From Isoetes taiwanensis (lineage: Eukaryota > Streptophyta > Lycopodiopsida > Isoetales > Isoetaceae): a stretch of 64,000 nucleotides of DNA. A program made the position numbers and the translations under genes. The notes below the pieces were generated by a model. That model ran no database searches. It was not told the origin of the DNA and saw nothing but the letters and a program-made list of their open reading frames with translations. The DNA is taken from positions 11,152,740 through 11,216,739 of the forward strand of contig JAJEKV010000008.1 of the NCBI GenBank assembly GCA_021234155.1, in the 5' to 3' direction. Every line of letters begins with the position of its first letter. The first letter of the stretch is position 1. Positions 2,700-53,369 of this stretch are shown here, piece after piece.

Positions 2700-5350
2700 G
2701 CATCATCACATTGGGCTAGTATATGTGAATGCGTCTGCAAACTTTCAAGTATGTTTTCATGGATATCATCCTCCAATTCAAACATATTATGTCCTATATC
2801 CTTCATGTCAAAATTGGGGAGACAACTAAGGATCAGTAAACACGCAGGTCGGCTCATATTCAAGTAGTTCATACCCTGCTGTCTCCCACGGTTTATAAAA
2901 CTTTGCTGTGACCACCACTTCCCTCCTCCCAAATTTTTGGCCCCAAGGATCTTTGTATGCTTTCTCTACAACATGCTTAGGTACAGTACATTTTAAGATG
3001 TAGAAATCAACCTTCTCCTTATTACCTGCTGGAGCAACCACTGCAAAGTTCTCTCCTACATCTATAATATCTGATTTCCACTCAGCATCTCCCTCATAGA
3101 CTGGCCCATCAACAAGTGCAGCATCATCCTCAATCCCTGGTCTTAATTCTGAAAACGTCCAGGTACCTATCCTATCTTTGTGTATGCACTTACTGTACTT
3201 ACCCACCCAACAATTATGACAAAAGCATGAGTAATTCATATGTGCAACTTGAGTGGCATCCTTGGAGTTCACTGGCCTGATGCTATGAAATTTACTGGAC
3301 CCTGTTAAAGTAGCACAGTCGAACTGCTCAACCCTGCTTACTTCATCCAGCTTGATCTCCCAAAAATACCTACAAACACATAGTAATGAGTAACATTGAG
3401 TAGTGTCTAATAAGTAACATTGATGAGTAACATTGAGTAATGAGTAACATAGTAATGAGTAACATTGAGTAGTGTGTATTAAGTAACATTAATGAGTAAC
3501 ATTGAGCACTGTCACAGCAGTCATGAATCCTATGTAGAATGTACCTATGTTTGTCAGAATCCTTGAAGTGTTCCCTGCAGGAACAACATCATGAGCATCC
3601 CGTAAAGGCTTGGAATTCCTCTTTAACATTTCATGTGTGGGTGCTCTCTTGAGAACGGCCCCTGCCCCATCATGCTCACCTGCCATTCAAACAATTGTGT
3701 CTATTATCTTACAAAATGTAGGCCAATCAAAACTGATCTGAATTTACCTTTTCCATGATATGAAGCAAAGTAGTTCCAGTTTATTGGAATGCCAGAGCTC
3801 TTATAGAATCTCCCAAGAAAGTAGAATGTTCTTGCACCCTTGAACTGGTGTGAGCAGCCATCAGACCACATTACGTGATTGTTGTATCTGACTAACTTGC
3901 TGGCCAAGTAATCAGCATGCTTGTTTAGACAGTGCTGGACGAATAAGGTGTCATGATCTCTATCATCCGAAATGTAAAAATGTGTCTCCTTGATGATATG
4001 CCTGTCACCATTGCTGAAAGAGTTCTCTTCAACCTCTCTTGCTGTTGCATGCCTGTAACTGATGTGCACAAGTATTGTGCACTGATCATTTCTCCAATAC
4101 AAGCTTTGGATTTCCTGCTGTATTTTGAAGGTATAGTTTTCAGCAAAATCTATGACTGATACCACAGTGTTTTCTGGAAAAGTGCCTAGACATTCTCTGA
4201 ATTGCTTCGCTTGCCACCTTGCCTCATAGTTATGGGGAATGAATTCAGTCACAATCTTTTTGGCATAAGACAGCACATCTGCTGTTGAACTGGTCTTGTA
4301 CACAAGCTTCACAATTGGCTTTGGAACCAATTTTGTCCCACCATTGCCATCAACCTCTTTTGCTGATTCAAAAACCTGAAAAGAAGAGAGTACAACCACA
4401 AAATAAATTTAAGACAACCACAAATGAAAAAACTTAATATGCTTCACATACCCTGTCAAAGGTTTTCCATTCTACCAAATGCCCTGAACTCTTGCTCAAT
4501 TCTTTAGGATACATAGGTAACTTAGAAGGGCCCAGGGCTTTGCATTTCAGCAACATGCGTCATGAGCATACCATCGATGCGAACATCCTTAGCACATACA
4601 ATTGACCTCCACAAATCACTTGATGATTTGTAGGTCATTGCATTTGCTTCACATTTTGGTCCAAAGACCACGCATGAGAACAAGTACAACTGCAAGTCGG
4701 CACCATGGATATTTCTATCCAGCCTAATTTTGTTTAGTGCTTGTCCGACATAGTCAAGCCTCATGTGGTACACACAACAGCCAAAGTTTCTCTATCCTTT
4801 ACTTTTCGAAACTAATGGAGGTTTTTAGTGCGGATCTTTGAGAAAGATACTTCAAATTTTGGATATCCTCTTCGAAATCTTGCATAAAAAGTGCACTGCA
4901 TTATAAGCAACAAAAAGGGTTAGCATTGTGAAGAAATGAAATGATAAATTTCAAAAAAAAAAAGTTACCTCAGTTTCCTCCAGAAAATGAAGGGCATGCA
5001 TTATCTTGTTTCCTTTACCAAGCCTAATCTTAATAACATGTTTCTTGCATGGTGAAACTCGTGTCTGAAAAGTCCAAAAGTTAGTTACTAATTTTTTTTG
5101 TTGTTTCTGCGCTTAGTTTATCAGATCTGGTTTTCTTTTTAAACATTGACCACATTGCACTTGGAAGTTCCCAAGCAATTAGTGCCAGGTACAACAGCAT
5201 ATACCATGGCTGAGTTCCTTGCTGTAAGCACATCCGTTGATCTGGCATACTTATGCTTTGCAAGAGAATTCCTCAAGTTGTTGACAATCTTAGTCATTGT
5301 CCCTAATTCTTTCAATTTCAACATTTCAAATTCTCGGCAAAGATCTTAGC
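2700..5350 (-). CDS. DDE-type transposase-like gene, copy 1 (core and C-terminal domain)
   Basis: Probable transposase of a DNA transposon. The central exon (4375 down to 3748) carries IDFAENY with a candidate catalytic Asp near 4148, VMWSDGCSHQFKG with a second Asp near 3860, and WNYFASYHGKG. A 68-nt GT/AG intron (3680-3747) interrupts HGKG; splicing continues as EHDGAGAVLKR. A second GT/AG intron lies at 4376-4451. Downstream, after an intron of about 170 nt holding a minisatellite, come a WEI segment and a Cys/His region (SCFCHNCW), then GENFAVVAPAGN. The last part shifts frame near 2830, and the C-terminus (FDMKDIGHN...DDIHENILESL) lies in another frame. Upstream exons read near 4522-4800, 4970-5060 and 5140-5330. 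The family pattern (FAENY, SDG, HGKG-x2-DG) resembles DDE transposase-like proteins I associate with animals. The superfamily is not established; Sola, with 4-bp target duplications, is one candidate. Exact exon limits are approximate. Confidence 0.65.
3376..3508. repeat. AGTAACATTGAGTA/ATGAGTAACATT minisatellite in a transposase intron
   Basis: Degenerate repeats of GAGTAACATTGA and AATGAGTAACAT fill the intron between the HGKG-containing exons and the WEI/Cys-rich exon of the minus-strand transposase-like gene. Confidence 0.75.
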
Positions 5351-7143: not shown

Positions 7144-7147
7144 TACT

Positions 7148-7170
7148 GGGTAAAAGAAAGCTAGGGTGTC
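7148..7170 (+). repeat. Left terminal inverted repeat of the 11-kb transposon
   Basis: Exact inverted match to 18198-18220. It begins GGGTAAAAG and is preceded by TACT. Confidence 0.85.
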
Positions 7171-7439
7171 TTACATTTGGCCAAATGTAGAGTAAGAGAT
7201 GTATCACATTTCAAATACATAACCGTTTTTTCAGTATGTACATAATAGCTATATTATGGAATCTTTTTTTTCGGAACTACTTGCCACGTCAATTAAAACG
7301 CAATCATGAAGCAGATTTCAATTCCCGCCGCTGTAACCACTCCAAGAAACGCCTGAACGTTAGGAGAATTTCCCACTTTCTGGCTAAAACTTCGCCCAGC
7401 TCCAGGATTTCCCTCCTTCTTGCCAGAATTCCTCCAGCT

Positions 7440-10400
7440 AACCCTAAACCACGCAAGAACCATGATGAACAACGAAGGAACAGAAATGGCGCAAGAAGAT
7501 TGCAATATCGGGAATGTGACAAAGAAAATGAAGCGTAAGATTGATGAAATTTGTAAATTTATATATGATCGGGTTCAAGATTTACGCCCGCGTGCAAAGG
7601 AGAGCTTTAGCGTTGAAAACCGTCGGGATGAAAGGCTCGCACTTTTTTGAACCCGCCATTGGAAATCGGCGCAAGCAATTCTCGAAGGATACTATGCTAA
7701 AAAAATATCCGTGAAGGTGCAAGCAGAAGTGAAAAGAGCAAATAGCAATGATAAATTAGCAGCTAAGCATTCCCTGTTATCAATGATTGTTGGTGAGAAT
7801 GGAAAACTCAGGCAAAAAGGAGTAGCCTCCAGAATTCTTCAAGTGCAAGCAAGAAACCTCACAAAAGCTGCAATTAGAAGAAAGCGGATGTCATTATCAG
7901 GTGCTAATATGTGGGCACCGGCGCGGAAGGCAACCCGTAGGCGGACATGCTTAGGAATCAACCAAACGGTTGGTAAATGAGTTTTGGTTAACCCCACAAA
8001 AACTTCTCCAAAGTACGGGGATGTCGGGAAGAAAAAGGACACTTCCAATCCAGTTTTGGACATGCCCCGTGTCAGTTTTAAGTCTTTTTAATCCTCTTTC
8101 TTGCAAGCTTGATAGAAGCTAGCTTATGTGCATCCCTGGATAAGTTTAGTAATCCTATTTGCATTCCATGTAAGGGATGTATCTGATATACATTGTAGTA
8201 CATCCAACTACAATAATTATATTTTTACACTTGGAGGTACTGAATGGGCTATGTTTAACAGGAAAAGTACTTGGATGTACTTCCAGTTACATCCAATGTG
8301 GCATAAGGCAGAAAATGTGTTGAAAGTCAGGCTGTGTTATTATAGTCTTGCTTTTTGTAGTTCCCAAGTACATTATAGTACATTTTAAGCCTTTTCGATC
8401 TCGGGGATAGTCTTTAAAGATAGGGTGATACATAAAAGTATTTAAATGTACTTCCTTCCATAAGAAAAGTATGAAATACATACATCTGTAATACAGTGAT
8501 ACTGTCTGTGACCTGGTTACATATTGAGTTTTTTTATGTACATCTGGAACTCTTTGGAGTACATTATTTATACATTTGTACATATCATGTGCTGTGGTAT
8601 GTATGATGGTGTGGTATAGTAGTTGAATGTATATCAAATCATGATCTGAGTGCCATAGAACTAATGCAATGTCTGCAACATCTTTGAATTCGTAAGTAGT
8701 TCTAATTTATATCTTACTTATACATGCCATTTTTTTTTCCTTGCAGAGTGAATTGTATGAGATGTTCAAAGATGAACATCCCGAAGTGAAGATTAGCATC
8801 GAGAAAGTTCGAAATGCTTAAGCCTAACGCGGTGTGAGAAGGTTGAAAGAGAGGAACACATCCGCCGCTGCGTGAAGCATGAACAAGCTGATCTATCTGG
8901 GGAAAGCTTTTAGCGCCCCGAGGAGCAAATTTCATGCCAACCGTACATGTTCTTGTGGTGTTTGTGCAGCAGATGAGAACAATGGCGCCTCGCCAAGCTC
9001 CTTCTAAAACATTTCAAAATGTTGGTGCTATGTGGAGAGCTACTGATGGCCCGTGATAAGGAAGGCGAAGAGTGGCATAGTTTGACTGCGGTGAAGGGAG
9101 AGTGCCGTAACTGTGGTAATCGAAAATATTCAAATCTGTCCCTAAGGAGAAAGAGTCGAAGAATGAGAACATTGAATGGCAAGTTTACAAGCACGCGGAA
9201 CGAACCTTCCAAAGCTGGCACTTCAAGGAGGTTGAAGCTTGTTACCGAAAAGCGGGACTCGGTGTACATTGCTTGACAAGATGTTTCAAAGACCTTACAA
9301 AGTTCACTATTCACAACTTTTCAGCAAGTTGGCGAGCAAACAATTCGTGAAATCGATTTAAAAATTTGAGGGATGATTCGTTTTGTCAAGAATGGACTTT
9401 GCAAGAGAACTACACTTTGACCATTCAGGGGAAGTTCAGTCCGAAAGCATTGGAACAATGACCGATAACTATTCCGTGCATATAACCATGATGAAAGTCA
9501 ATGGCGAGCTGAAAAAACTGTTCATTTGTATGTTTTCGATGTTATGAAGCATGATGCTTTCTTTGTTCATTTTGCACTCAAGAAGCACCATATTTGGATG
9601 ATGCAAAAGGTTTTAGCCACATCAAATACCATGTCATGTGGTCCGATGGGTGTCTGCTTTCGGTTTAAGTGTTCTCGAGCCTTTTATTTGAATGTGGCCC
9701 AATATTATAACAGGTATAAAATTAGGATGCAGTGGAATTATTTTGGCTCAGGCCATGGAAAAGGAGAACATGATGGGCATGCTGCTTTGGAGAAAAGGTT
9801 CCTAGCAGACGAGCAAAGGAAAGAGAATGGTATTCGATTTTGGGTGTTAACTCGCTTGCACTTTGCTGAGACAAAAGAAGTGCAAAATGGACAGAGTCAT
9901 ATGGGAGGTGATGGCAGAAGACATTAACAGGGACCCTCGTTCAGATTGTGAGACATTGCCTGGTACTCTAGCTATACATTGTGTGTCTGCTATTAATCCA
10001 GCTGACCCAACACTTGTCATGTATAGATCCCTGTCATGTTTTTGCAATGGTTGCTTGAATTTCAGATGGGGAGAATGTGAGAATCTCGAGCATTGTGGTG
10101 CATGGAAGCTGCACAAACTGGAGCCTAGTTCGGCCCAGGTCGACGAACAAGAAGAGCTAGTTGGTTTTTATGCAGCTGATGAGCAAGAACTATCCGATGT
10201 ACTCCAAATTGGAGACATATTTGCATCTTTTGCTGCCCCAGGGAATCATGAAAATGTTCCATACTTCGTCCTCCTATGCGTGAAGGAGATGCATATTCTT
10301 CAGGAAGATGTGATTGACGACTATGGAAATAGAATCGGGCCTGGTGAGGGGTTATAGCTGGTCATTACTATCAAGCGCTACAAGGCACAAAGCACAAGTA

Positions 10401-10575
10401 CAAGTTGCTGGATGACAAAATAGTATTGGTACCAGCTGAATCTGTAATTGGAGCAAAGTTCACGATGCAGCAGGTCAAGCATAAGTTGAAGGGGGCACGT
10501 ACAACATATATGATCACACGAGAGGTGCATGACATGCTTATATCAAGCCTACCTGAGATTGTTGAGTGCACATGA
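7440..10575 (+). pseudogene. Transposase-like gene, copy 2, frameshifted
   Basis: Same family as the minus-strand copy at 2.7-6.7 kb. N-terminal block at 7711-7980 (NDKLAAKHSLLSMIVGENGK) matches the block at 60.1-60.2 kb. TSPKYGDVGKK follows near 7995-8030. A tacat-rich stretch of about 0.6 kb then intervenes, and coding-like sequence resumes near 8750. Core: MDFAREL with Asp near 9394, then WSDGC readable near 9640, where a frameshift switches to CSRAFYLNVAQYYNRY, WNYFGSGHGKGEHDG and ALEKR. The C-terminal domain has IWEV, SCFCNGC and GDIFASFAAPGNHENV, another frameshift near 10350, and ends TGA at 10573-10575. HGKGEHDG is continuous here, with none of the 68-nt intron found in copy 1. Stops and frame changes show it cannot encode a full protein. 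Confidence 0.7.
8128..8640. repeat. Tacat/gtaca-rich degenerate repeat inside transposase copy 2
   Basis: Many scattered copies of GTACAT, TACATT and ATGTAC with no clear unit. It separates the N-terminal and middle coding blocks of the transposase pseudogene, so it may be an intron or an insertion. A similar stretch occurs at 14.23-14.60 kb. Confidence 0.45.
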
Positions 10576-10618
10576 CTAAGTTCTGTACAAAGGAACTTTC
10601 ATATTTGCCATCATCTTC

Positions 10619-11171
10619 TGTTATGTTGAGAAAACTAGTCGATTGCTGTAAGTTTTTTTGTTATTTACTTATTTTTTAATCTGAAGTGCATTTTGATACT
10701 TCAATTTCAGTATCACAGAATATCTTCTGTGACCAAGCAAAATGTATATCAGAAAGTACAAAATGTTTATCAATTGTTGCATGAAGAAGTTAAACTAGTC
10801 TGTGTTATGTTGAGAAAACTAGTCGATTGCTGTAAGTTTTTTTGTTATTTACTTATTTTTTAATCTGAAGTGCATTTTGATACTTAAATTTCAGTATCAC
10901 AGAATATCTTCTGTGACCAAGCAAAATGTATATCAGAAAGTACAAAATGTTTATCAATTGTTGCATGAAGAAGTTAAACTAGTCTGTGTTATGTTGAGAA
11001 AACTAGTCGATTGCTGCAAGTTTTTTCTTATTTACTTATTTTTTAATCTGAAGTGCATTTTGATACTTAAATTTCAAAGTATCACACAATATCTTCGCTT
11101 CCAAGCACAATGTATATCAGAAAGTACAAAATGTTCATCAATTGTTGCATGAAGAAGTTAAACTAGTCTGT
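10619..11171 (+). repeat. 184-bp tandem repeat, three copies
   Basis: TTATGTTGAGAAAACTAGTC recurs at 10621, 10805 and 10989, a period of exactly 184 bp. The first two copies are near-identical; the third has small changes and ends near 11171. Each unit contains GTAAGT followed 62 nt later by TTTCAG (or AAG in copy 3), so each looks like a 122-nt exon plus a 62-nt intron. The array starts just after the end of the transposase reading frame. Confidence 0.9.
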
Positions 11172-11559
11172 GAACTTGTTCTGTTAGAATGGATATCAAT
11201 AGCTTTTCTTTTGATTCATGAAACAAAGAAGAAAGTGGAACATGTATGGAGACAAAAACTCTTGTATTACATATCACAAGATATACAACCTGGTCATATC
11301 AGATATGATGCCAATATATACAAGTCTGTTGTTCATGTTTTATATTAACATTAATTTACATTCAAAAATCTGGTCACAACCATGTGAAGCCAATTACATA
11401 CTATTCTCGGGCTGTTTCAATATGTTACTTTCTTGCGGCTTTGTCCATAGCCTGGACATGCCATCTGTATCCTTGTAGCCCTCTGAAAGCATTTGCCTCC
11501 AAACAGCTGTTGTTAGTACATCGGATGGATTGCGTAAAGGATTCTCGCTTCACATCTTG
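11172..11559. other. Region between the two convergent transposon genes
   Basis: Short open frames only. No recognisable protein or RNA gene. Confidence 0.4.
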
Positions 11560-11990
11560 TTGTGTGTCTCGGTGCTATCAACAAACCCTCTAGCCATGGT
11601 TTGAAGTGTCAAGAGACCCGTGTCTTCAACATCACTTTCCCGCCATGAAGGTGGGCATATGCAATTTTCGTTGGGATTGAAGAGCATCTTGTACTTTGAG
11701 TCGTCTACTATTAGTGTGTTCTTTGTTATTCCTGCCCGGATACTTCTCGTGATATAAACTCAATTGGCTTCGGATACAAAGGTTTATCTTCACTTGCTGC
11801 AATCAGGAAAAGGCTGACTCCAAACACGATGGCTTCCATCAAAGGTGAACCTTAAGTCCCTTATCTGCGTCATTGTCAAGATTTTATCCACTACTCTTGA
11901 TAGGTTCCATGGAGCTATTGATGACCATATTCCTACTTCAAAGTGTTCAAATACAAATTCCGTGAATTCGCCTAGGTGGGGCCTTTAAAA
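11560..11990 (-). pseudogene. Coding remnant downstream of the protease-like gene
   Basis: On the minus strand a stretch reads ITKNTLIVDDSKYKMLFNPN and then CPPSWRESDVEDTGLLTLQT, preceded by TMTQIRDLRFTFDGSHRVWS in the same direction with two intervening stops. The continuous, polar, codon-like reading suggests decayed coding sequence. It is probably the 3' part of the transposon's second gene or another fragment of the same element. No family is recognised. Confidence 0.35.
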
Positions 11991-11999
11991 CAACACTTT

Positions 12000-12470
12000 C
12001 TTGCCTATTATGTCATAATTTCCAACTAGTGATCATCCGATACCAAAGTCCTATGTATTTGTTTTGCCAAAACATTATTGATATCAAACACTATCAACCT
12101 TTTTCAGACGTACACTGATATGAAAGAACATGCAATTTATCAATAAAGTATGGTGGAGTTGAATAAAAGAGATTGTATTCAAATTCAATGAAAAAATGTG
12201 TATTTTATAATCAAATAGTGTTTAGCATTGACAATAGGGAGAGGCTGTTTCTTAGCAACATTTATTAGTACCAGGTGGTCTAATAGGTTCTAAAAGCGAT
12301 TTGAATGTGGTCTAACTCCTGAAGTAGTGCTCGGGTGAGAACATCACGACGATCAGATGCATACTTTGTCAAGAACCAGTTTCGGTAATCTGCAAATGTG
12401 ACAACAATACTTACATAATAAGTATTAAAACCATTTGTTTGCAAGACAAAAGAAGTGAGACACTCACATT
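12000..12470. other. AT-rich stretch, no gene seen
   Basis: No convincing coding or RNA feature. It is probably intron or decayed transposon sequence. Confidence 0.35.
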
Positions 12471-12477
12471 GGTAGTT

Positions 12478-13360
12478 TTACCACACATTTGTGTCTACAA
12501 ACTTCGCATATAAAGCCGCAACATAGAGGCCACATGAATCCCCATCTTTCTGCTGTGGACACTTATGAATCTTCACAACTGGTGAAGGATTTTGTCCATG
12601 CTTCAAAAAAGTGGGACACTCGACACAACCGCGTGCCATAGTGAGGATATGGAGCCTGCAAAAGACCAGATCTATTTTGTAGCAAATGAATGAAAAGAAG
12701 TCGCTAACATGGTATCCAATCTACTCAATATTAATAAAAGGAGATGTGAAATACAAAATACCTCTTAAGTGCAAGCATGTCAACGTCAATGTCCTCGTGG
12801 TAATTGAAGATCCGAATGTTGATGGTGTTCTTACTCTTAGTAAGTGCCATGTTGAAGATGGCCAAAGTGTGATGTTCAAGAACTCTACATAGCATTGGAA
12901 TCATGATCCATCGCACTTCAGCCAATTTATCCCCTGAAGAGCTACCTTTACAATATCTCTTCCACCTTTGAGGTGCCATAGATTTATCTTTTTCGCTTGC
13001 CTTGGCCCATGCCGCAAATTCCATGAAGTCCGATTGGGAAGAACCGGACGTCGGCCTTCTTATCATCTGGAACACAGAGCTGCAGGTACCTATAACAAGT
13101 TGAAAAGGATACAATTACTAACTTGACTTACACATACAAATGAACAAGTTCAAAGTCCAGTACCTGGCATACATATCCACATGCCGGTTGGAAAATTTCC
13201 CACATCCATGTCCAAAGACATCTTGTTCAAATAAATAACACTCCATTTCGTGCAAAGATCCCGGGAAAATCCTTGCCTTCTTGAGCTTCATCATTCGGTT
13301 CAAGAAGGCATCAGATGGCTTTGTATTGAGAATCGCAGCCGGGTTCAATGACCAGTACAT
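12478..13360 (-). pseudogene. Ulp1-like (C48) cysteine protease domain of the transposon
   Basis: Ulp1/SENP-type proteases cleave SUMO-like proteins and are often carried by large plant DNA transposons. Three minus-strand blocks are visible. At 13360-13118: MYWSLNPAAIL with FGHGCGKFSNRHVD. At 13114-12731: RWIMIPMLCRVLEHHTLAIF, where the His pair near 12870 fits the catalytic His, followed by IRIFNYHEDID, which has Asn where the family often has Asp. At about 12640-12478: HKCPQQKDGDSCGLYVAAL, with Gln and the catalytic-type Cys (codon 12532-12534) in the classic Q-x(n)-G-x-SCG-x-Y/FV context. GT/AG-like junctions separate the blocks. The His and Cys motifs are seen; the missing Asp and the scattered frames make activity doubtful. 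Confidence 0.6.
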
Positions 13361-13599
13361 TTACACAAATCATCTACATTCGTCTACTACTATCCATATT
13401 ATTTTAAAGTTTTTAACTTGGATACTAGATGTAGAAAAAAAATGTAAGAAATGTAGATCAAGTTACTCAGAGATCATTCTTCCGCTTTCCGCCGATACTT
13501 GTTTCTGAGTCAAGATCCATTTCCTTCCCTACTTTTTTGGTTTCCTCACTCAGATTCTTATTAGGTCCGTAATCCTCGTCGCGAACCTCTTCCTCGATT

Positions 13600-15980
13600 T
13601 CTCATTGTCGAATTTGGCGTCCTTTGCTATGTCGAAGCAAGTTTTGACACAAACTTAAAAGTATAGGGCTCTACATCTTGATGCTCGGAATATTCCTCTT
13701 CATTAGGACACGTAAAACATAGGATGTCATGGATTTCTCACCGGCTGTACACTAAAATAAAATGCTTTCTTACATTTTCTCTTTGCTTCAATTATCTTCT
13801 TCCGTGGCTTTTTAGGCGTGGAGTTCTTCTTTGGAGTCACATCTTCTGCCACGCCTTTACTTTTGAAGATGTGGCCTTAGCCTGCTCCCTCAATCTCTCG
13901 AAGTTCCCGCTCATAATGTGGAATGTCACCATGCACTGGTGCCGACCTCCTCAACCTTTGTATCACCAGCAGAATAGTGATTTTGCTTTTTCCTTCAATC
14001 ACTGCTTTCTTTCCCTCGGCTACATCTTGCACCTCAATTTTCTTTGGAACCTCCAAAACTGTGAAAACCGAACCAAGAATAAGAAATTGCTTCCTCTGAC
14101 ACAATGCAAATCGAATTTGAAAACAAGCGACCTCGATCCGTGGTGTAATTTCGCCAAGAGTAGTTTTTGGCACTTTGAAGCTCGAAAATAAATCACATAA
14201 CAAATCGGATATCGGCCTCAAACTAATCGGTCTCTAACCGTTTCATACATATCAATAGTCAGACATATTACTAGAACTGATCTACATTGAAGTACTTTGA
14301 GTACATACATATGTAAACAGCTATTTATCCAGATGGAATGTACATGTAATGTACATGAATGTGCTCCAATGTATGCACATGTACACATCACACAGTACAT
14401 AAAATACCTCTAAATGTTCTGCCACAAAACTCAGTACACAACTCCTAATTTTATGTATTTAAGTTCTACATTTAGGACCCTACACTGTGAATGTACAACA
14501 TGTATGTAAGAAACACATATATGTATGACATGCAAGCCAAGGAACTATAAGTATAAAATAACCAGTACACTCCTACATGTCAGAGCAAAACCTTAAGTGC
14601 AAAGAATCTACATGTAAATGGATTCTACATGTAAATGGATTCTACATTGCAAGTAATCCCGGGTGCAACAAATTGAACATAAATCATGAAATATCGCTTA
14701 CCTCCGGTGTATACACACCCAAGGTCTTTGAAATGTTATCGCCCCATTTGCATGCTCTTGGGCGGGATAGTCCAAAGCAGAAATAGAATATGAGAAACGA
14801 AGATATGAAATGAATGCTCGCGATGGAGCAACTAGGATAGGTTCATTATTAGCAAAGCCATTACTGCAAAACACACATCCATGCACAGATATGAATTTTT
14901 CTTCAGCTGGAGAGATCACTAAGCTTGTTTTGGGCTGAAGGAGAATCGCTGCAGAATGCATCATGTACTTATGCATATCATCAAGCCGTCATAAAGACTC
15001 AAACCTGAACTTTGTGGGCCTCCTCAAGTTCCGCAATCCTCTTTTCACATAACTCCTTCTCCGAATGGCTTTCTCCAATGGCTCCTCGAATTCTCTTCAA
15101 AGATTTCTTCCTTCCTGTTTCTATCTCTCATCAAAAGGTCTACCTCCTGCTGCACAGTCTTGATGTCTCTCTTATTCTGCTTAGCGTCGTCGAGAACACT
15201 ATTGATGTCTTCTTGTATCTGTGCTAGGTCCTCTTCATGTGCATCCTTTCTTCCTGAAATCTTATTTATATTGTCACGTAATTAAATGCTGCTGGATTTT
15301 CAGTTCTTCAACCTTGGATGTCTTTGCTAATTAACTCTCCATGACAACGCCGCAATGTGAGTTTCGCAAATTCAAGCTCTTCCTTAGGGTAAAATCCTTG
15401 CTGAAATTTAGGAACCTTGGATGTGGATTTAGAGGTCGCAATTTCTTCTGTAATAGCAGATTCTTTTGCTCCTCCCTTTGCCAAATCTTTGGCCAAAACT
15501 TTAAAAGTATCCCAATCTACTTTTTTACCTGTCAATTGAAGGGCAAATGCACGAGCAAAGTACTCAGGTACATGGCGATTTGTGACCTCCCGCTTACCAA
15601 AAACAATTTCATAATGTTTGTAGAAGTTCTCGCCCACTCGGCTTCACGCTTAGATTCTTTGAACCCCCGTGATGTCTTTGGGCCCCACCGCTTTCGTCCA
15701 TTATCATTTGTAAATCTGGAAAAATTTCATCCGCATTTACACATCTTACATGCTTTGCTTCCCAACAAATGGTTCTTCACAAATAAGTCTTCTTTTTGGC
15801 CCGGGTTCCTCGAAGTTTGAACCTTCCTCTTGTTTTTTCGGCTTTCTTGCTAGAATCGGCTATTTTCAAATTTTTGTTTAAACTGGTGACTTAGGGAGGC
15901 AAAGGCGCCCATTGCTTGGATTTTGGCAAGGATTTCGAGGAAGAAGAATAGTTCTGATCCGAATTACCGTTGATCACTTT
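13600..15980 (-). pseudogene. 5' part of the transposon's second gene: coiled coil, zinc finger, basic tail
   Basis: Upstream of the protease-like domain on the minus strand. Order from 5': a Lys-rich start near 15.98-15.84 kb (SLNKNLKIADSSKKAEKTRG); a block at 15637-15308 with NFYKHYEIVFGKREVTNRHV; a coiled-coil stretch at about 15245-15010 (EEDLAQIQEDINSVLDDAKQ) with a frameshift; a finger-like block near 14910-14800 (CVFCSNGFANNEPILVAP) whose later Cys/His positions have decayed; and basic blocks at 14.2-13.7 kb (KPRKKIIEAKRKCKK). The finger resembles the one in the gene at the window start. In-frame stops and shifts show a pseudogene. Splicing is likely but not resolved. Confidence 0.45.
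14230..14600. repeat. Tacatg-rich degenerate repeat, probably intronic
   Basis: Repeated TACATG, GTACAT and ACATGTA words, including a duplicated CTACATGTAAATGGATT unit near 14.61-14.64 kb. It resembles the stretch at 8.13-8.64 kb in the same element. Confidence 0.45.
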
Positions 15981-16104
15981 CGAAACACGTAAAATTGAAC
16001 GGCGGCAAATTTTTTTCCTAAACAGGAAACACTTCGCAATCTCCTGCCCTTGGTATGCAATACAGGAAATTGAGATAACATTATGCTCCCACCTTAGCGC
16101 CCGC

Positions 16105-16274
16105 CGCCTTCTTCACCGCCTTAGCGCCCACCGCCTGAGCGCCCAGGCCCGATCAAGCTCATGTGAGGCTGCAGGGGGATGTTCTCTATCAGCCCGCTCA
16201 CCGCCTTCTTCACCGCCTTAGCGCCCACCGCCTGAGCGCCCAGGCCCGATCAAGCTCATGTGAGGCTGCAGGGG
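16105..16274 (+). repeat. 97-bp tandem duplication upstream of the LINE ORF1
   Basis: CGCCTTCTTCACCGCCTTAG begins at 16105 and again at 16202, and the two copies match through CTGCAGGGG. It is GC-rich, unlike its surroundings. It precedes the ORF1-only LINE and could be its promoter repeat, but that is inference. Confidence 0.85.
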
Positions 16275-16549
16275 CAATCATCAGCGGAAAACATGGTTAT
16301 GGCATAGTCTGGCATCACCAGCATCAACAGCATCAACAGCCGGGTCTGTTCATGTGAGTCGGCTAGCTTCCAGACAAATCCAGCTTCGGCCACATCAGGG
16401 CTCTAGAGGCCGAGGGTTTTTGGCCCAGTGCAGCAAAATTAGGCGGCCCTTTTGGCTTTGCAATTGACAGCAGCAGCGGAATCCGGCCTCGGCTTCAGGG
16501 AATCACGGCACAGCTCCGACAGATCACGATAGTTCGGCAGAGTCCCTTA

Positions 16550-18024
16550 CTTTGCTTCTGCTTTTGATGCCTACGTTGCCTTGGTGTCTAGTATCTTACC
16601 GTTTTGAACTCTTGATCATCTCTGGCCCCCTTTGTCACTCACACCAGGTTTGGGATTGCCTCTGCTTTCTTTGTCTTTGCCCTTGGAGATACTTCTGTTT
16701 TGTGGCCCATATCCTACAGTTTCGATTCCTTGAAGCTTGGAGCTCCTTTCTTTTCTTATAAGCAGTTCTGCTGGCCCATCCTCTTGTTGCTCTGAATGGC
16801 TCGTCAGATCAAACGCATGGCCAGGGAGACCCGTAAAGAAAAGAACCTCGTTAGGCTGCCGGAGCCAGTCTTAAATAGGCCCTATGACCCGAATTGCGCC
16901 ATATCTCCGTGCAGCCCCATCATTTGGGCCTCGGGCCCTATTTTGGCGAGACCCGGACACACCCCCAGACACGCGAACCCGCTCCGGATGCATCTTTGGT
17001 CGCGGCCTTGACCAGATTAATGCTCTCGATCCATTGTTTGCCTCCGATTTTTGCTGGTCGAGATCCGCGACGATCCAATCGACAAGTCCACACTCCACAG
17101 CACATCGGCTCCATTGCCCTTGGGAAGCCGGGTCCGGCTTCTAGAGATGCCGCGCATGCCGGGCGGGAGCTGATTCGGTAAAGACGGTAGTGCTACACTG
17201 CAGCCTCCCCTGGGGTTAGCGCCCGAGCATGTGGATGCTACGCCCCGTGCCGATGATACCACGCCTGTGCCCACACGGCCGTCATCCGAGGGTTGTTTGC
17301 CCACTGCACAGGTCCCGCTTTCGAAGCCTGACCAGGCCACAGTGCACCCGTTAGCCTTGAACCTACGCATTGTGGGTTTGGAGGAAGCAAGCGACACTCC
17401 TGGGGCAGTTGAGGTGACCCGTTTCTTTGCAGAGGTGATGCACGTACAGGCAGATGGCATTCTCTCGGCTCGTCGAGTTGGAGCAAAAAGACGGCCGACC
17501 GGGCCCCCGCCATTTGCTAGTCGGGCCGGGGATGCTTTATCCAAGCTGCACATCCTCCGCCATGGCAATCACTTGCAAGGGACCTCCTTCTCAGTCCAGG
17601 AAGACCTTACCCCAGCACAGCTCTGCCGACGGAAGGAGGAATTATGTCGAGTCCGCGAGGCTCGTCTGCACCGGAAGTGGGCTGTGTATAGAGGCGGCCA
17701 GGCTGTCATTCGGGATCACTGGCCACTTGATCCATGGGCAATGTCTGTGTAGCTGATTTGACTCCGAGATCTGCTTGGGCTTATGCCCTTTTGTTTTGTT
17801 TTATTCTAGTATTGTGATTTGCTACGGGGCATAGTCCCCCGAGTTCTCTGTACTGGGGCTAGTCCCCACGTTTGATTTTGGCTTCGGCCTTTTTGGTTTG
17901 GTCACGGGGCTTGGTCCCCGAGTTTCAGTCTGGGCTTCTGCCCTCTCTTTTGTATTGGGTCCCATAACCCGATTGGGTTCCGCGGACGTTAAAAATTTCT
18001 TCCTTCCTTCCTTCCTTCCTTCCT
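16550..18024 (+). mobile_element. ORF1-only LINE copy ending in a (TTCC)n tail
   Basis: A GC-richer block inside the 11-kb transposon. It contains a LINE ORF1 coding frame followed directly, with no ORF2, by a 3' region. That region carries GGTCCCATAACCCGATTGGG, then TTCCGCGGACGTTAAAA, and ends in (TTCC)n at about 17992-18024. The same terminal module is found at other LINE 3' ends in this window. The 5' limit is uncertain; the 97-bp repeat at 16.1 kb may belong to it. Confidence 0.6.
17174..17752 (+). CDS. L1-type ORF1 protein (RRM plus C-terminal domain)
   Basis: LINE ORF1 proteins bind element RNA and act as nucleic-acid chaperones. The frame is open from 17174 without an obvious ATG, so the N-terminus is missing or starts elsewhere. 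Near the middle, LNLRIVGLEE starts an RRM-like region, followed by ADGILSARRVGAKRRPTGPP, then LHILRHGNHLQGTSFSVQED, LTPAQLCRRKEELCRVREAR and WAVYRGGQAVIRDH. That order matches the RRM and C-terminal domains of L1-type ORF1p. It stops at 17752, and the 3' terminal module follows within about 200 bp. No endonuclease or reverse transcriptase lies downstream, so this element must rely on another LINE, as half-L1 (HAL1) elements do in mammals. Confidence 0.6.
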   Translation, partial: FGKDGSATLQPPLGLAPEHVDATPRADDTTPVPTRPSSEGCLPTAQVPLSKPDQATVHPLALNLRIVGLEEASDTPGAVEVTRFFAEVMHVQADGILSARRVGAKRRPTGPPPFASRAGDALSKLHILRHGNHLQGTSFSVQEDLTPAQLCRRKEELCRVREARLHRKWAVYRGGQAVIRDHWPLDPWAMSV

Positions 18025-18197
18025 CCGAAAAATTGCAATGAAGGTCCGTTCTGGTTGCCACTGCCACTCATAATTTTGAATTGCTGACGTGGCTACTCCT
18101 AATCATTACATATCCCAACTAACTAAAATTCAAAAAAATAACAAAAACGGGTGCCTACATGCCCTACATTATACATAATGTAAGGGCATTTTTTTTA

Positions 18198-18220
18198 GAC
18201 ACCCTAGCTTTCTTTTACCC
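18198..18220 (-). repeat. Right terminal inverted repeat of the 11-kb transposon
   Basis: Exact inverted match to 7148-7170, followed by TACT, which also precedes the left end. Confidence 0.85.
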
Positions 18221-18299
18221 TACTATCAGTTTGACTCAATGGCCAGAGTGATCTGATAACCTAAGAAGTAACCATATGCGTTGTATTATTTTGTATAGG

Positions 18300-43780: not shown

Positions 43781-46228
43781 TCACCAATAGTCCCTGCAAG
43801 AACACACACCATCCTTAATGACATGAAACCGATGGGCATCCCTCACAACAATTTCCCGTGCAACCATCTTGGAGATGAACTTAGCTGCATTGTGGCAATC
43901 TGGACATTCCCGGACGTTTTTAATAATCCGAAGGGGAGTTCCAGCTGGCGTACTGATGAGACCAAACGCAAGAGCCAGCTTTTCGGTATGATAGCAAAGC
44001 ACATCATCCCTATGTTTACCAACACCATGGAAGATAGCCTTTGTTTTTGGTGCATACCCTTCCTCTTTCATGGCTTTCCTTAATCTTTCCACCTCTGCAT
44101 GGACCAAATCTATTTGAGGATGTGACCTGCCTCCTGCGACAAATTCATGTATGGTATTGTTGACTTCAATCCAGCTGCGACCAGCCTCTTTCTTTACCCC
44201 GTTTTCTATCATTGCTTCCTTAATCTTGGCCACATCACTCCATCTACCTTCTGCAGCATAAATGTTGGAAAGAACAGCATATGCCTCAGAATCCTTTGAA
44301 TCCAAGGCAAGAACATGCTCTGCTGCGAGCCTCCCTTCGTCCAAGAAACCATGTATTCCACAGGCCCCAAGGTATGTCTTCCATACTACAAGATTAGGTT
44401 TGAATGGCATTTTTATTATTAGATCCTTTGCCTGATCTAGTTGGCCAGCCCGCCCAAGTAAGTCAACTATGCATCCATAATGTTCTGTCACAGGTACAAT
44501 TCCGTGCATCTCACTCATGGAAACAAAATAGTGACAGCCTTCTCTACCAAGCCCACCATGACTACATGCAGAAAGTATGCTGATAAATGTTATGCTGTTT
44601 GGCTTTAGACCTGCTTGTTGCATATAATTCAAAACTTCTAAGGCATCCTTCCCATATCCATGCTGAGCATATGCAGCAATGATGGCAGTACATGTAACCA
44701 TATTCCTTGTGCCCATTTGGTCAAAAACTGACCGGGCTTCTTCCACTCGGCCACATTTCCCATACATATTCACTAGGCTAGTCTGCAGCATGAGGTCGTG
44801 CTCAAACTTTTTATAAAGTTTGACATGCATCTGCATTCCCTGTGATAGTGCAGCTAAGCTGGCGCATGCATCAAGAATGGTCACATAAGTAATTTTGTTT
44901 GGAACAATGTTGTCCAAATGCATTTTATAAAAATGTTGGAGGGCCCAAAGACTATAGCCACATTGAGCATAAAGTCCAATGAGAGCGTTCCATGTTACTA
45001 CATTCCGCTCGGGCAACTTTCTAAATAATGCATAAGCCTCATCTACATTACCACATCTCCCATACATATTAACTAGAGCAGTTCCTAATAAAACATCAAC
45101 TTCTAGTCCTCCATCAAGAATCATAGCATGAACAACCTTGCCTCCTGCAAGTAATTCAGCCCTAGAACATGCAGCAATAGTGGTAATAAAGGTTACCTTG
45201 CTTGGATTTGCACAACCATCCACCAGCATCTGGAAAAAAAGTTTAAGTGCCCGTTCACCTTCTCCACAATGTGCACATGCTCCAATCATAGAAGTCCATG
45301 CAACTATGCCTGTGTGTTGCATTTCATTGAAAATTGATAATGCATTTTTCAATGTTCCACAGGTTGAATACATTTTAATAAGAAGGTTCCTAATGGAAAT
45401 GCTTGATCCAAAGTTCCACTTGGCGATGGATGCATGGGCTAACTTCCCTACTTCCAAGGCACCTAAGTCAGAGCAGGTTCTCAGAACAATGGCAAAGGTC
45501 ACTTCATTTGGATGTAAGTTATCATCCAACAGCATTGACTTGAAAAGTTGAAGGGCACCATTTGCATGTCCATGTTGGGCATATGTAAAAATTATTGCAT
45601 TCCAGGATACAGCATCCAATTCAGACATCATCTCAAAGATATAGCATGCATCTTCTAAACTGTTACACTTGCCATACATATTTATAAGCGCATTACCAAC
45701 AATCACATTCAATCGAGGCCCTTTACAAATAATATAACTATGGATCAGTTTTCCTTTATCATGTTCACAAGAAGCGGAGCATGCGTTTAGTGCAGTAACA
45801 AATGTGATTTTATTCGGCTCAAATCCCTCTAAAATCATTCTATTGTAGATATCAACAGCATCCTTGCTATAACCATGCTGTGTATATGCGGACATCATTG
45901 TATTCCAAGTGACAACATCCTTACTTGGCATATCATCAAACACAGCAAGTGCATTCTCTAGACTTAGGTACTTGCCATACATTCTAATAAGAAGATTCCC
46001 AATATACAAGTCCCTGTTCAATCCAACTTTATTAATCCGATCATGCACTTCCTTTCCTTCATATACACTGCTACAATTATGCAAAAGACGAGCATATCTA
46101 TGTCTATCTGTTACCTCCAGATTATCCACCAGAGACTCCAAGCCCCCATCATGAATCTCCATTCTTGGCGCAGCCAGTGTTGAATGCAATTTACATGCTC
46201 CAACCCCCACAAAAGCATCGGTCTGCAT
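43781..46228 (-). CDS. PPR-DYW protein, organellar C-to-U RNA editing factor
   Basis: PLS-class PPR proteins bind one organellar RNA site, and the DYW domain is the cytidine deaminase that converts C to U. The 815-aa ORF is intronless and intact. A long run of PPR motifs (residues about 70-590, e.g. DVVTWNTMMSAYTQHG, NVVTWNALIGLYAQCG) is followed by E/E+ motifs (VPVTEHYGCIVDLLGRAGQL) and a full DYW domain: PG box near GRSHPQ, HTE (His747, Glu749), CPDCH (Cys775, Cys778), HRFH and CSCRDYW at the very end. All expected zinc and catalytic residues are visible. The ATG at 46228 has an in-frame TAA four codons upstream, so this start is forced unless an upstream exon exists. The N-terminus (MQTDAFVGVGACKLH) is not a strong transit peptide. 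This is the only clearly functional host gene in the window. Confidence 0.95.
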   Translation of the reverse strand: MQTDAFVGVGACKLHSTLAAPRMEIHDGGLESLVDNLEVTDRHRYARLLHNCSSVYEGKEVHDRINKVGLNRDLYIGNLLIRMYGKYLSLENALAVFDDMPSKDVVTWNTMMSAYTQHGYSKDAVDIYNRMILEGFEPNKITFVTALNACSASCEHDKGKLIHSYIICKGPRLNVIVGNALINMYGKCNSLEDACYIFEMMSELDAVSWNAIIFTYAQHGHANGALQLFKSMLLDDNLHPNEVTFAIVLRTCSDLGALEVGKLAHASIAKWNFGSSISIRNLLIKMYSTCGTLKNALSIFNEMQHTGIVAWTSMIGACAHCGEGERALKLFFQMLVDGCANPSKVTFITTIAACSRAELLAGGKVVHAMILDGGLEVDVLLGTALVNMYGRCGNVDEAYALFRKLPERNVVTWNALIGLYAQCGYSLWALQHFYKMHLDNIVPNKITYVTILDACASLAALSQGMQMHVKLYKKFEHDLMLQTSLVNMYGKCGRVEEARSVFDQMGTRNMVTCTAIIAAYAQHGYGKDALEVLNYMQQAGLKPNSITFISILSACSHGGLGREGCHYFVSMSEMHGIVPVTEHYGCIVDLLGRAGQLDQAKDLIIKMPFKPNLVVWKTYLGACGIHGFLDEGRLAAEHVLALDSKDSEAYAVLSNIYAAEGRWSDVAKIKEAMIENGVKKEAGRSWIEVNNTIHEFVAGGRSHPQIDLVHAEVERLRKAMKEEGYAPKTKAIFHGVGKHRDDVLCYHTEKLALAFGLISTPAGTPLRIIKNVRECPDCHNAAKFISKMVAREIVVRDAHRFHVIKDGVCSCRDYW

Positions 46229-46800
46229 CCTAGCTGCTTAATAAAGCATGTATTGTTAGTTATGAAATGGGTTAATGTTGAACTGAGTTGCAGCTGAAAA
46301 GAGGGGCACCTGGACTGATTTCTGATTTGTATGGCACAAATCGGATCCTTCCATTCCCGAGCTCCACATGTGGGGCTTGGCTCCACATACTCGGGCAAAT
46401 TATGTGAGGTTGAAGTACATGGTGCGTGCGCAGAAGATGTGCTCCAAAGTGACAATTAGCCCAGTCGGCAATCCGTCGGCAATCCGACGCCCGAAGGAAT
46501 TGTAGGAAAAATCGAAAGACAACTAAGATAATCGTTGATATACGCAGATTATAAAATCCAACCTCGGTGGGTCAGTCCCATAGTTTGATTGGTATAGTGT
46601 ATTGATTGGTATAGTGAATATACATTTGCCCAATTCGTTTGGTATTATGTTATTTTGCTACGTGGACTATCACAGTCGTCGGATCTGTCAATCCTACAGT
46701 CCAAACTATATGTTGGAGCCTCTGAGCACCTCTCGTTTCGCTTATGCTCATTTATGATTGGGGGCGCTTATGATTTTGAGATGTCAAATACGAGTTTGCC
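46229..46800. promoter_or_regulatory. Upstream region of the PPR gene
   Basis: Presumed promoter and 5' leader. A minus-strand frame (46455 to 46111) overlaps the PPR start in another frame and begins MSLWSTSSAHAPCTSTSHNL, a Ser/Thr-rich sequence of transit-peptide type. Joining it would need a splice or frameshift. No clear TATA box was assigned. Confidence 0.3.
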
Positions 46801-50480: not shown

Positions 50481-53369
50481 TTACAGTTTATCATTCCATC
50501 CCAATGCTTTAATTAATATATCTGCCAATTGATTTTCAGTGTTGATGTAGACCAGTTGAATATGTCCTTTGCCAACCATATCTCTAATGTAGTGCATTTC
50601 CATTTCAATGTGTTTTGTTCTCTCATGAAGTACGTGATTTTTAGTCATAGCAACGCAACTCTGATTATCACAAAATAGCTGAGTACTTCCTTCTTGAGTA
50701 ATCCCCAATTCATTCAATAACCTTCTCCAAATAATCTCCTTGGCTGCTAGTGTGGTTGCAACATATTCTGCTTCTGCTGTTGACAATGCTATTGAAGATT
50801 GTTTCTTGCTCCTCCAACTTATAGGTGCTCCTTCCAGCATCAATATATATCCAGAAGTGGATTTTCTTTCATCTAAGTCCCCACACCATTCTGCATTTGT
50901 GTAACATTTTAACTGCATGTCATCTGACCTGTATATTATTCCTGTGGTATTTGTCCCCTCTAAGAATCTTAACACCTTCTTTGCTGCTGTCCAATGGTCA
51001 AGACCCAGATTATTATTATATCTGCTTAACACATTTACAATGAAAGCAATATCAGGCCTTGTATTATTGGGAATAAAGAGCAAACTTCCAACTAATTGTC
51101 TGTATGCTATTTTCTTCATTTCTTCAATCTCCCTTTCTGACTGTGGACGCATTTGCTTAGATAGTTTTGCATCCAGGAAGAATAGGTGCTTTTAATGAAT
51201 TGCAATCTTGCATATTAAATTTTTCCAGTATTGTATCAATGTATTTACTTTGGCACAGGGATATGGTTATGTTATTCCTATCTCTTTTCACCTGTACTCC
51301 TAGAAATTGTGATAGTTCACCTAGATCTGTCATTTTATATCTTCCTTTCAGCATTTCTTTACACTCCTTCATAAATTCTGAATTATTTGATGCTAATACA
51401 CAATCATCCACATAAATTGCCGTTATGCAAAAACTGTCTTCCTTCCTTAGAAGATATACGTTTTTATATCATTTGCCAGTTTTGCAAACCCTTGTTCCTT
51501 CAAGAAATCATTTATACAAGCATACCATTCCCTAGGTGACTATTTTAGACCATAAAAACCTTTTTAAGCCTCCACACCTTTCCTATTCTCTTCTCAAAGC
51601 CCTGAGCTTGATTCATGTAAAGTTTTTCTTTTAAATTTGCATTTAAGAAGGCAATGCACACATCCATGTGGTGCAAGTCCAAGTTCAATGCATTTGAGGC
51701 TGCAATAATCATCCTAATACTAGCCAGCTTGACCACTGGTGAGTAAGTTTCTTCGAAATCAATACTCCTTTTTTGTGAATAGCCTTGGGCTACAGGTGCT
51801 TTATATTTTGGAGTGCTATCAGCATTAACTTTAAGTTTATATACCCACTTGTTGCCTATTGAGTGTTTTCCCTTTGGCAGATCCATTAACTTGTATCTAT
51901 GTTCTATCAAAAGATTCCATTTCATCTAGCATAGATTCTTTCTATTTATGGCCTTCTAATCCATTTATTGCTTCTTCAAATGTTTCTGGAACATTGCCTG
52001 CATCACCATTAAAGCTTCATCCACATTCATTTCTTGAAGTTCAAATCTGTTACTCTTGCCATATGTTTTCCTGCCATATGTTGTTATGTCTAAATTCAAT
52101 TCTTCTCTAAGTCTTTCACCATTTTGTTCATTTGCATCCCCTTCTGACTCTTGATCAGAGTCTGCATAATTATCTGTATCTTCAGCTGCATTCATTTGGT
52201 CATTTTTATTCATAATTCTGTCAGAGCTTGCAATGTGTTTTTCCTCTTCATTTGTTTTCTTATCAACCATAGGTCTGTACAGCTCATTCTCCACAAACGT
52301 CACATCTCTACTTAGTATAACGTTTCTTTTCAAAGGGTTGTACATTTTGTAGCCTTTGGAATTATCATCATAGCCCCCTAAGTATGTTATGACTGACCTG
52401 TCATTTCCTTAATTCTAATTTTCCTGACCACATTTGTTCAGGGCATTTTCCTTTTAAGCTTACAGATGGCAAGGTGTTTTGTATTAGTACTATAGTTTTC
52501 ATCACTTCCCTCCAGAGGAAATTAGGTAAGTCAGCCTGTCTAAGCATGGACCTAGTAGCATTTAGTATTGTTTTGTTTTTTCTCTCTGCTATCCCATTCT
52601 GCTGAGGTGTGTAGCTGCATGTGTACTGCCTGTGTATGCCTCTATCTCTATAATACCTTTTAAATCTGAATGAGAGATACTCGCCTCCTCGATCTGAATG
52701 TACACACTTGATTTTCCTCCCAGTTTTGAGCTCCACCTCAGCTGCATACTTCTTAAAAGCTTCAAAAGCCTGGTCCTTTGATCTCAAGCAGGATATCTTG
52801 GTTTTCCTGCTAAAATCGTCTGTAAACGTTATGAAATATTTTTTTCCAGTTATCCGTATCACATTTATGGGACCGCGTGAATCAATATGGACCAATCCTA
52901 GAATATCATTTGATCTTCCCTTTGTGTTTGAGAATGGGAGCCTAAAATGCTTTCCCAACATACACCCCCTGCAAATGTAATTTTCTAATTTGCTGTCTGC
53001 AGATTTGATTCATCCATTTTTAATCATTGTTTCTACACTTTTAACATTAGTATGTCCAAGTCTTTCATGCCATGTAGCTATATTTGGTATTGTGGCCATG
53101 TTTACACTTCCAATACACTATAAATTTCCAACCCTTCTGCCTAAGAATTTCAGTTTATTTCCTTCAACGATTTTACAATGCATTTGCTCAAACATTACTT
53201 TGAATTCCATATCCACAAGTTGAGAAATTGAGATCAAATTTCTAACTAAACATGGTACACAAAGTACATTCTGCAGATTGACTATCTCTCCTTCTAAATT
53301 GAACAGCTCGAGTATTCTAACATCTTCCACCTTTTGTGTGCAGTAACTGCATAGTAAACAACACTGCAA
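50481..53369 (-). pseudogene. Copia pol: pre-integrase, integrase, RT and RNase H, broken frames
   Basis: Order on the minus strand fits Ty1/copia, with integrase before RT. 53369-53118: GAG pre-integrase region (LQNVLCVPCLVRNLISISQL). 52961-52401: integrase core with FTDDFSRKTKI, CVHSDRGGEYLS and TPQQNGIAERKN, so the D, D and E residues are present. 52345-51965: connecting region with low-complexity acidic sequence. 51925-51545: RT start (KWVYKLKVNADSTPKYKAPV; LHHMDVCIAFLNANLKEKLY). 51440-51157: YVDDCVLASNN, the catalytic YVDD. 51152-50481: RNase H (CGDLDERKSTSGYILMLEGA; STAEAEYVA). Frame changes between blocks and a stop near 51.55 kb make it a pseudogene. Confidence 0.9.

Follow-up and report, generated by a model that had tools for sequence, protein, structure and literature searches.

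An HGKG transposon family of Isoetes taiwanensis with convergent C48 and NIF coding

The element and its coding parts

We analyzed a 64,000-nucleotide stretch of the Isoetes taiwanensis genome (GenBank assembly GCA_021234155.1, contig JAJEKV010000008.1, positions 11,152,740 to 11,216,739 of the forward strand), hereafter the window. Positions 7144-18224 are one copy of a multi-copy cut-and-paste DNA transposon of the terminal inverted repeat (TIR) class, bordered by a 4-bp target site duplication (TSD). The element holds an HGKG transposase gene and, convergent with it, coding for a C48 (Ulp1-like) protease domain and an NIF (FCP1-like phosphatase) domain. The best joint explanation of our results, which we consider very probable, is an Isoetes transposon family of about 9.06 kb with an HGKG transposase, convergent C48/NIF coding, and NIF as a recurrent companion. 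The parts of the window copy are as follows.

7144..7147, no strand: left TSD, 4 bp, TACT, matching the right copy; other copies likewise carry 4-bp flanks
7148..7171, plus: left TIR, 24 bp (inverted-repeat match and genome-wide TIR search)
7172..7189, no strand: 18-bp subterminal palindrome TACATTTGGCCAAATGTA, spotted by eye and kept in all 17 fetched copies
7462..7980, plus: probable first exon(s) of the transposase, MMNNEG..., frame broken, boundaries estimated from reading frames
8735..10563, plus: HGKG transposase core with CCC-H, DFAENY region, SDG region, HGKGEHDG and C-terminal domain (tblastn with L052)
10619..11170, no strand: three 184-bp tandem repeats between the convergent genes, the third copy 70% identical; repeats of the same spacing also in copy L031
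11424..12103, minus: NIF/FCP1-like phosphatase domain (Pfam match of single reading frames and of the composite protein)
12301..13360, minus: C48 (Ulp1-like) protease domain in several exons, with the Q and C of QQKDGDSCG and an HH pair present (Pfam)
14708..15912, minus: N-terminal part of the minus-strand gene, with a basic stretch, a coiled coil (by eye) and a RING-like zinc finger
16045..18025, plus: nested insert of about 2 kb with a 3' (TTCC)n tail, retroposon-like and foreign to the element; unaligned with L031, edges set by eye to within a few bases
18160..18188, no strand: imperfect right subterminal palindrome, spotted by eye
18197..18220, minus: right TIR, 24 bp (inverted-repeat match and genome-wide TIR search)
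18221..18224, no strand: right TSD, 4 bp, TACT

The first-pass annotation of this DNA had proposed a single element at these positions, with a TACT duplication and perfect 23-bp TIRs. The TIR pair, the flanks and other genomic copies bear out the element, and its TIRs are indeed perfect (100% complementary, with ends reading GGGTAA), except that they measure 24 bp. At up to three mismatches, the only TIR matches in the window are the element's own two (shuffled controls, 0/100). The same threshold applied to the assembly, 1,658,258,908 bases in 1110 contigs, gave 292 forward and 260 reverse matches, 552 in total, compared to 1 and 0 for a reversed-pattern control. Pairing counts rest on 100 listed places out of these 552, among which there are 24 adjacent plus/minus pairs less than 25 kb apart, 15 of them spaced 8.7-9.5 kb, and no adjacent pairs within 25 kb in any other orientation. 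We fetched the 17 pairs less than 10 kb apart, all with perfect TIRs; in 14, the 4-bp flanks on the two sides are identical, their sequence varying from copy to copy and including CGCT, CTCG, AGGT and TGTC (the exceptions are L033, L037 and L045). Full-length copies are about 9.06 kb. The reference copy L031 and others, together 11 of the 17, align to L031 over their whole length in a single piece, at 88.6-92.9% identity, while L037, L040, L041, L042 and L045 align in pieces, L042 being disrupted in its C48 part, and L047 has lost NIF and C48. The search for further TIR pairs that the annotation had called for therefore yielded many, mostly with 4-bp TSDs and the same interior genes, and these copies have the same TIRs as their ends. 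The window copy equals L031 apart from the 2 kb at 16045-18025, and this insert is the reason that it spans about 11 kb. The 5' part of the insert contains two 80-bp direct repeats with 97-bp spacing, and its open reading frame (ORF) at 17174-17752 resembles a retroelement ORF1 by eye and has no Pfam match.

The convergent layout and the tandem repeats between the two coding blocks would fit a protease-NIF block that had inserted into an HGKG element as a transposon in its own right, a possibility that the annotation had itself raised. Against this, the 11 of 17 copies with single-piece alignments have the block in colinear order between the family TIRs, an inverted-repeat scan found no second perfect end pair inside the element, and HGKG with NIF recurs elsewhere in the genome. 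Because the C48 and NIF coding lies between the family TIRs in full copies, we reject a separate nested protease element; colinearity largely refutes it, and we regard it as very improbable.

The open 629-aa frame of L052, another HGKG locus of the genome, matches the window core in two tblastn pieces (32% and 61% identity, E 8e-85). The DFAENY reading is broken in the assembled window copy and was taken from other copies. Public HGKG-type proteins (P0001-P0133) have the same DFAENY, SDG and HGKG architecture, with CCC-H in the longer ones, and no Pfam domain is recorded for those listed. Pfam found no transposase family for the HGKG proteins scanned: P0001, P0010, P0061 and L052 have no transposase match at E≤0.1, including that of Mutator-like elements (MULEs), and we therefore reject a MULE. 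A modelled HGKG relative has a predicted RNase H fold, with the Asp of DFAENY on strand 1, the Asp of SDG at the end of strand 4, and the nearly invariant Asp of GKGxxDG at the start of the helix after strand 4. With the three acidic residues in place in this model, we predict with high confidence that the HGKG protein is a DDE/D (RNase H-fold) transposase. The HGKG fragment of the window matched nothing in a PDB sequence search, none of 15 profile-search matches has a recorded Pfam domain, which gives no sign of a protein fused from HGKG and C48 or NIF, and none of 8 pattern matches in viral contigs or 188 in bacterial and archaeal genomes was confirmed as an HGKG relative.

For the minus strand, exons pieced from several copies were read together as a composite protein. 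The composite belongs to both domain families, matching PF02902 (C48) at E 2.4e-8 and 34.5 bits (cut-off 20.7) and PF03031 (NIF) at E 5.9e-17 and 62.3 bits (cut-off 21.8). Taken singly, the best window ORF for C48 reaches E 0.0049 and 17.2 bits, below the cut-off, and window ORFs for NIF reach 24.5 and 19.2 bits. The C48 domain that had been annotated on this strand is real, and the coiled coil is recognized by eye; for the zinc finger, the composite gives a weak match to RING (22.8 bits, below its cut-off of 27), and the NIF domain at 11424-12103 had been missed. A PDB sequence search with the C48 composite returned a single weak match (E 0.11). C48 and NIF may be parts of one protein or of neighbouring genes.

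Convergent NIF genes recur beside HGKG transposases

Co-location shows that in several divergent families of this genome HGKG transposases repeatedly have a convergent NIF gene at their side. We compared 72 HGKG loci (79 matches less 7 secondary pieces; the best 72 of 13,198 candidates) with 147 NIF loci found with the NIF domain of locus L051 (150 matches less 3 second pieces; the best 150 of 4,698). Of these HGKG loci, 18 have NIF no more than 5 kb away; it lies on the 3' side and is convergent in 17 and divergent in one, compared to 0.06 pairs expected from random placement. Within 20 kb, the listed loci form 23 pairs, of which 20 are convergent, two same-strand and one divergent. One of the 17 convergent pairs is the locus of the query itself, L051, and copies from a single family do not count as independent.

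Among another five HGKG loci whose open frames are long, three (L048, L050 and L051) carry a convergent NIF gene, and L051 additionally carries a coiled coil-RING part. The L051 NIF domain matches PF03031 at 46.7 bits; the NIF ORFs of L048 and L050 fall short of Pfam E 0.1 and match the window NIF by tblastn (E 9e-11 and 1.5e-11). Identity among the NIF proteins of the window family, L048, L050 and L051 is 24-37%, and that between the L048 and L051 HGKG proteins is 42%, so the pairing spans old lineages. The pairing of HGKG with C48 had been correctly recognized in the annotation; that of HGKG with NIF in other HGKG families had not. A simple exact-seed scan found no TIRs around L048. In L051, a stretch resembling PTP-NADK (L051:3776-4105, Pfam E 5e-8) lies between the NIF gene and the transposase and may have been captured from the host.

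C48 was seen beside HGKG in the window's family only, by a weak test. Out of 52 PF02902 matches, none came within 20 kb of the best 72 HGKG loci, and the test is weak because the PF02902 list misses the window family's own C48 and the 72 loci exclude the window family. Manual merging of the matches listed left 115 C48 relatives. Contigs C1-C995 carry 33 of them, 27 with a perfect family TIR at a distance of 12 kb or less. A repeated C48 class (profile 130-201, open frame of 91 aa, more than 20 listed matches) is positionally unrelated to the compared HGKG loci and possibly represents another Ulp1-bearing transposon. A NIF class repeated on many contigs, scoring about 65-77 bits against PF03031 and with open frames about 220-350 aa long, occurs away from the 72 HGKG loci, among the 150 matches nearest the Pfam model (the best 150 of 3,261 candidates).

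The window contains one further HGKG gene, just outside the element on its left:

2832..4944, minus: second, distinct HGKG transposase gene with introns, encoding a related protein (homologue search)

Convergent NIF was not found in the 2.8 kb available on the 3' side of this gene.

Copy differences at CG and CHG motifs

Frameshifts and stops occur in the copies examined, and these, together with the 88.6-92.9% identity of single-piece copies to L031, could mean that the entire family, window copy included, consists of pseudogenes that died long ago. The distribution of the differences argues otherwise. In an alignment of 17 copies, with the window copy included and L047 left out, the rate of mismatches plus gaps relative to the consensus is 22% in CG/CHG columns, 12% in adjacent columns and about 3% at least 6 nt away. 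Pairwise substitution is 27% at CG/CHG motifs versus 1.2-1.3% at columns at least 6 nt away. The most variable position is the middle base of CAG/CTG, at 32%, compared to 4-6% for the control motifs CAA/TTG and CCA/TGG. Since this base is not a deamination target, deamination is ruled out as the main cause of the copy differences. The zone within 2 nt of a CG/CHG motif takes up 29% of columns and, in the window copy, contains 37 of the 53 deletions, 66 of the 87 insertions and 270 of the 397 substitutions. The last 72 bp, which are free of CG/CHG motifs, differ by 0.6% pairwise, a value that includes the 24-bp TIR, preselected as perfect.

According to excerpts of its published description, the Isoetes taiwanensis assembly was built from R9.4.1 nanopore reads and polished with racon and pilon (PMC8566536). 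Because the differences cluster at CG/CHG motifs in an assembly of such reads, much of the apparent decay is probably base-calling error at methylated sites in repeats beyond short-read polishing, and we conclude that the transposon family appears to be young. On this evidence, an ancient and dead family is unlikely. The annotation had placed an HGKG transposase on the plus strand, convergent with the C48 gene, and both points stand; its label "pseudogene" is unsafe because copy-to-copy differences concentrate at these motifs.

An anchor-word search of all 18 copies found a longest open fragment of 312 aa for the transposase, with frames confounded by probable base-calling errors, and of 370 aa for the minus-strand gene; the autonomy that the annotation had considered is therefore putative. 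In comparisons of nonsynonymous and synonymous substitution (dN/dS) with L052, dS was incomputable in 17 of 18 cases; the ratio of 0.22 for the window copy is not relied on. Elsewhere in the window, an open 818-aa pentatricopeptide repeat (DYW) gene at 43781-46237 on the minus strand, recognized by eye, contrasts with the broken frames of the transposon, and pieces of a Copia-type retrotransposon with integrase and RNase H ORFs are visible by eye at 50481-53009, also on the minus strand. An Rfam scan of the window at gathering thresholds returned zero matches.

Known transposons and a possible role for the companion protein

Mutator elements make target duplications of about 9 bp. The 4-bp duplications, the NIF domain, and the lack of a Mutator transposase match in the scanned HGKG proteins set the window family apart from Ulp1-bearing Mutator elements, with which it shares the form of a DNA transposon with an Ulp1-like domain; such domains are described in Mutator elements of plants and animals in the portions consulted of PMC2836005. 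Compared by description only, the family resembles Sola elements (Sola1-3) in having 4-bp duplications and TIRs. Sola2 has AT-rich 4-bp duplications (AWWT) and a long transposase, and its elements can include an additional gene (Fanzor) (PMC3627910). The mixed duplications found here do not fit Sola2, and we reject it. Ginger1 is similar in its 4-bp duplication and, in some members, an Ulp1 (C48) domain, which is C-terminal within the transposase; its duplications are CCGG/CCGT and its ends TGTNR, as far as the excerpted account goes (PMC2836005). The window family differs in its GGGTAA ends, its varied duplications and a C48 domain on the opposite strand, and Ginger1 is likewise rejected. In the literature searched, we found no paper on HGKG in connection with a transposase. 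Searches of titles and abstract openings for FCP1/NIF with transposons, for passenger phosphatases, and for Ulp1 with transposons and fern, a scope largely without subscription journals and Repbase Reports, gave no description of the pairing. To our knowledge, a phosphatase-type partner gene retained beside a transposase across divergent families has not previously been described.

Several results weigh against a family with working C48/NIF coding and NIF as a regular companion. No intact copy of either gene was seen among the copies examined. NIF/FCP1-like phosphatases have the catalytic motif DxDx(T/V). The NIF domains read by eye depart from it, the catalytic Asp pair being D..N in the window family and L051, E..N in L048 and E..D in L050, with assembly errors possible, and the C48 position that is usually Asp reads Asn here by eye. 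We regard the NIF domain as a putative fold relative of FCP1-like phosphatases whose activity is doubtful. A search with the composite minus-strand protein found no homologues at E≤0.01. Third-position changes show no clear excess in the regions covered by a within-family codon-position test, and the NIF variants common to at least two copies, distributed 3/2/6 over the codon positions, are too few to judge. In the pairing comparison, 54 of the 72 listed HGKG loci have no NIF within 5 kb, and no NIF was found in the 10 kb fetched around L049, which contains an N run, or L052, which has retroelement-like ORFs downstream. Both lists are top-scoring subsets and are incomplete, and therefore the absence of a pair says little. 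None of the 150 NIF loci nearest the Pfam model is within 20 kb of the 72 HGKG loci, so HGKG adjacency is a trait of L051-like NIF genes and not of NIF generally; for the majority of the genome's NIF genes, a role as HGKG companion is not shown.

One interpretation of these results is that C48 and NIF are captured pieces of host genes (Pack-type passengers) without function, and that the transposase is the sole working part. The variable NIF catalytic positions and the unseen intact copy would fit this, as would the missing C48 near the listed 72 HGKG loci of other families (a weak test) and the PTP-NADK-like fragment that L051 also holds; Ulp1 in plant Mutator elements is a known precedent, as noted in the consulted parts of PMC2836005. 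However, NIF recurs convergently in HGKG families that are 24-37% identical in NIF, and random capture would not repeat both position and orientation. In addition, many of the listed matches to the L051 NIF query have open frames of 200-390 aa. We consider functionless passengers improbable.

Alternatively, the companion protein may assist transposition by altering post-translational marks and thereby opposing control by the host, a mechanism we propose tentatively from the domain content. With its RNase H-type site, the HGKG transposase would cut at the TIRs and join, inserting with a stagger of 4 bp. The C48 part would act on SUMO, and the NIF part on phosphorylation of the type found on the carboxy-terminal domain (CTD) of RNA polymerase II, or, where it has lost catalytic residues, would merely bind the CTD instead of acting on it, as the departure of the catalytic positions from the usual Asp pair would allow. 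More broadly, HGKG transposons could constitute an undescribed eukaryotic superfamily of two components, an integrase-like transposase and a convergent FCP1/SCP-fold partner, to which one lineage added a SUMO protease and RING, controlling host marks during transposition. We put this forward as a serious possibility, at somewhat less than an even chance.

Repeat-borne reading frames in the nanopore assembly of Isoetes are likely corrupted at methylated motifs, and transposons considered dead there need to be judged anew. If functional, the partner genes described here would point to control of transposition via CTD phosphorylation of RNA polymerase II or via SUMO.

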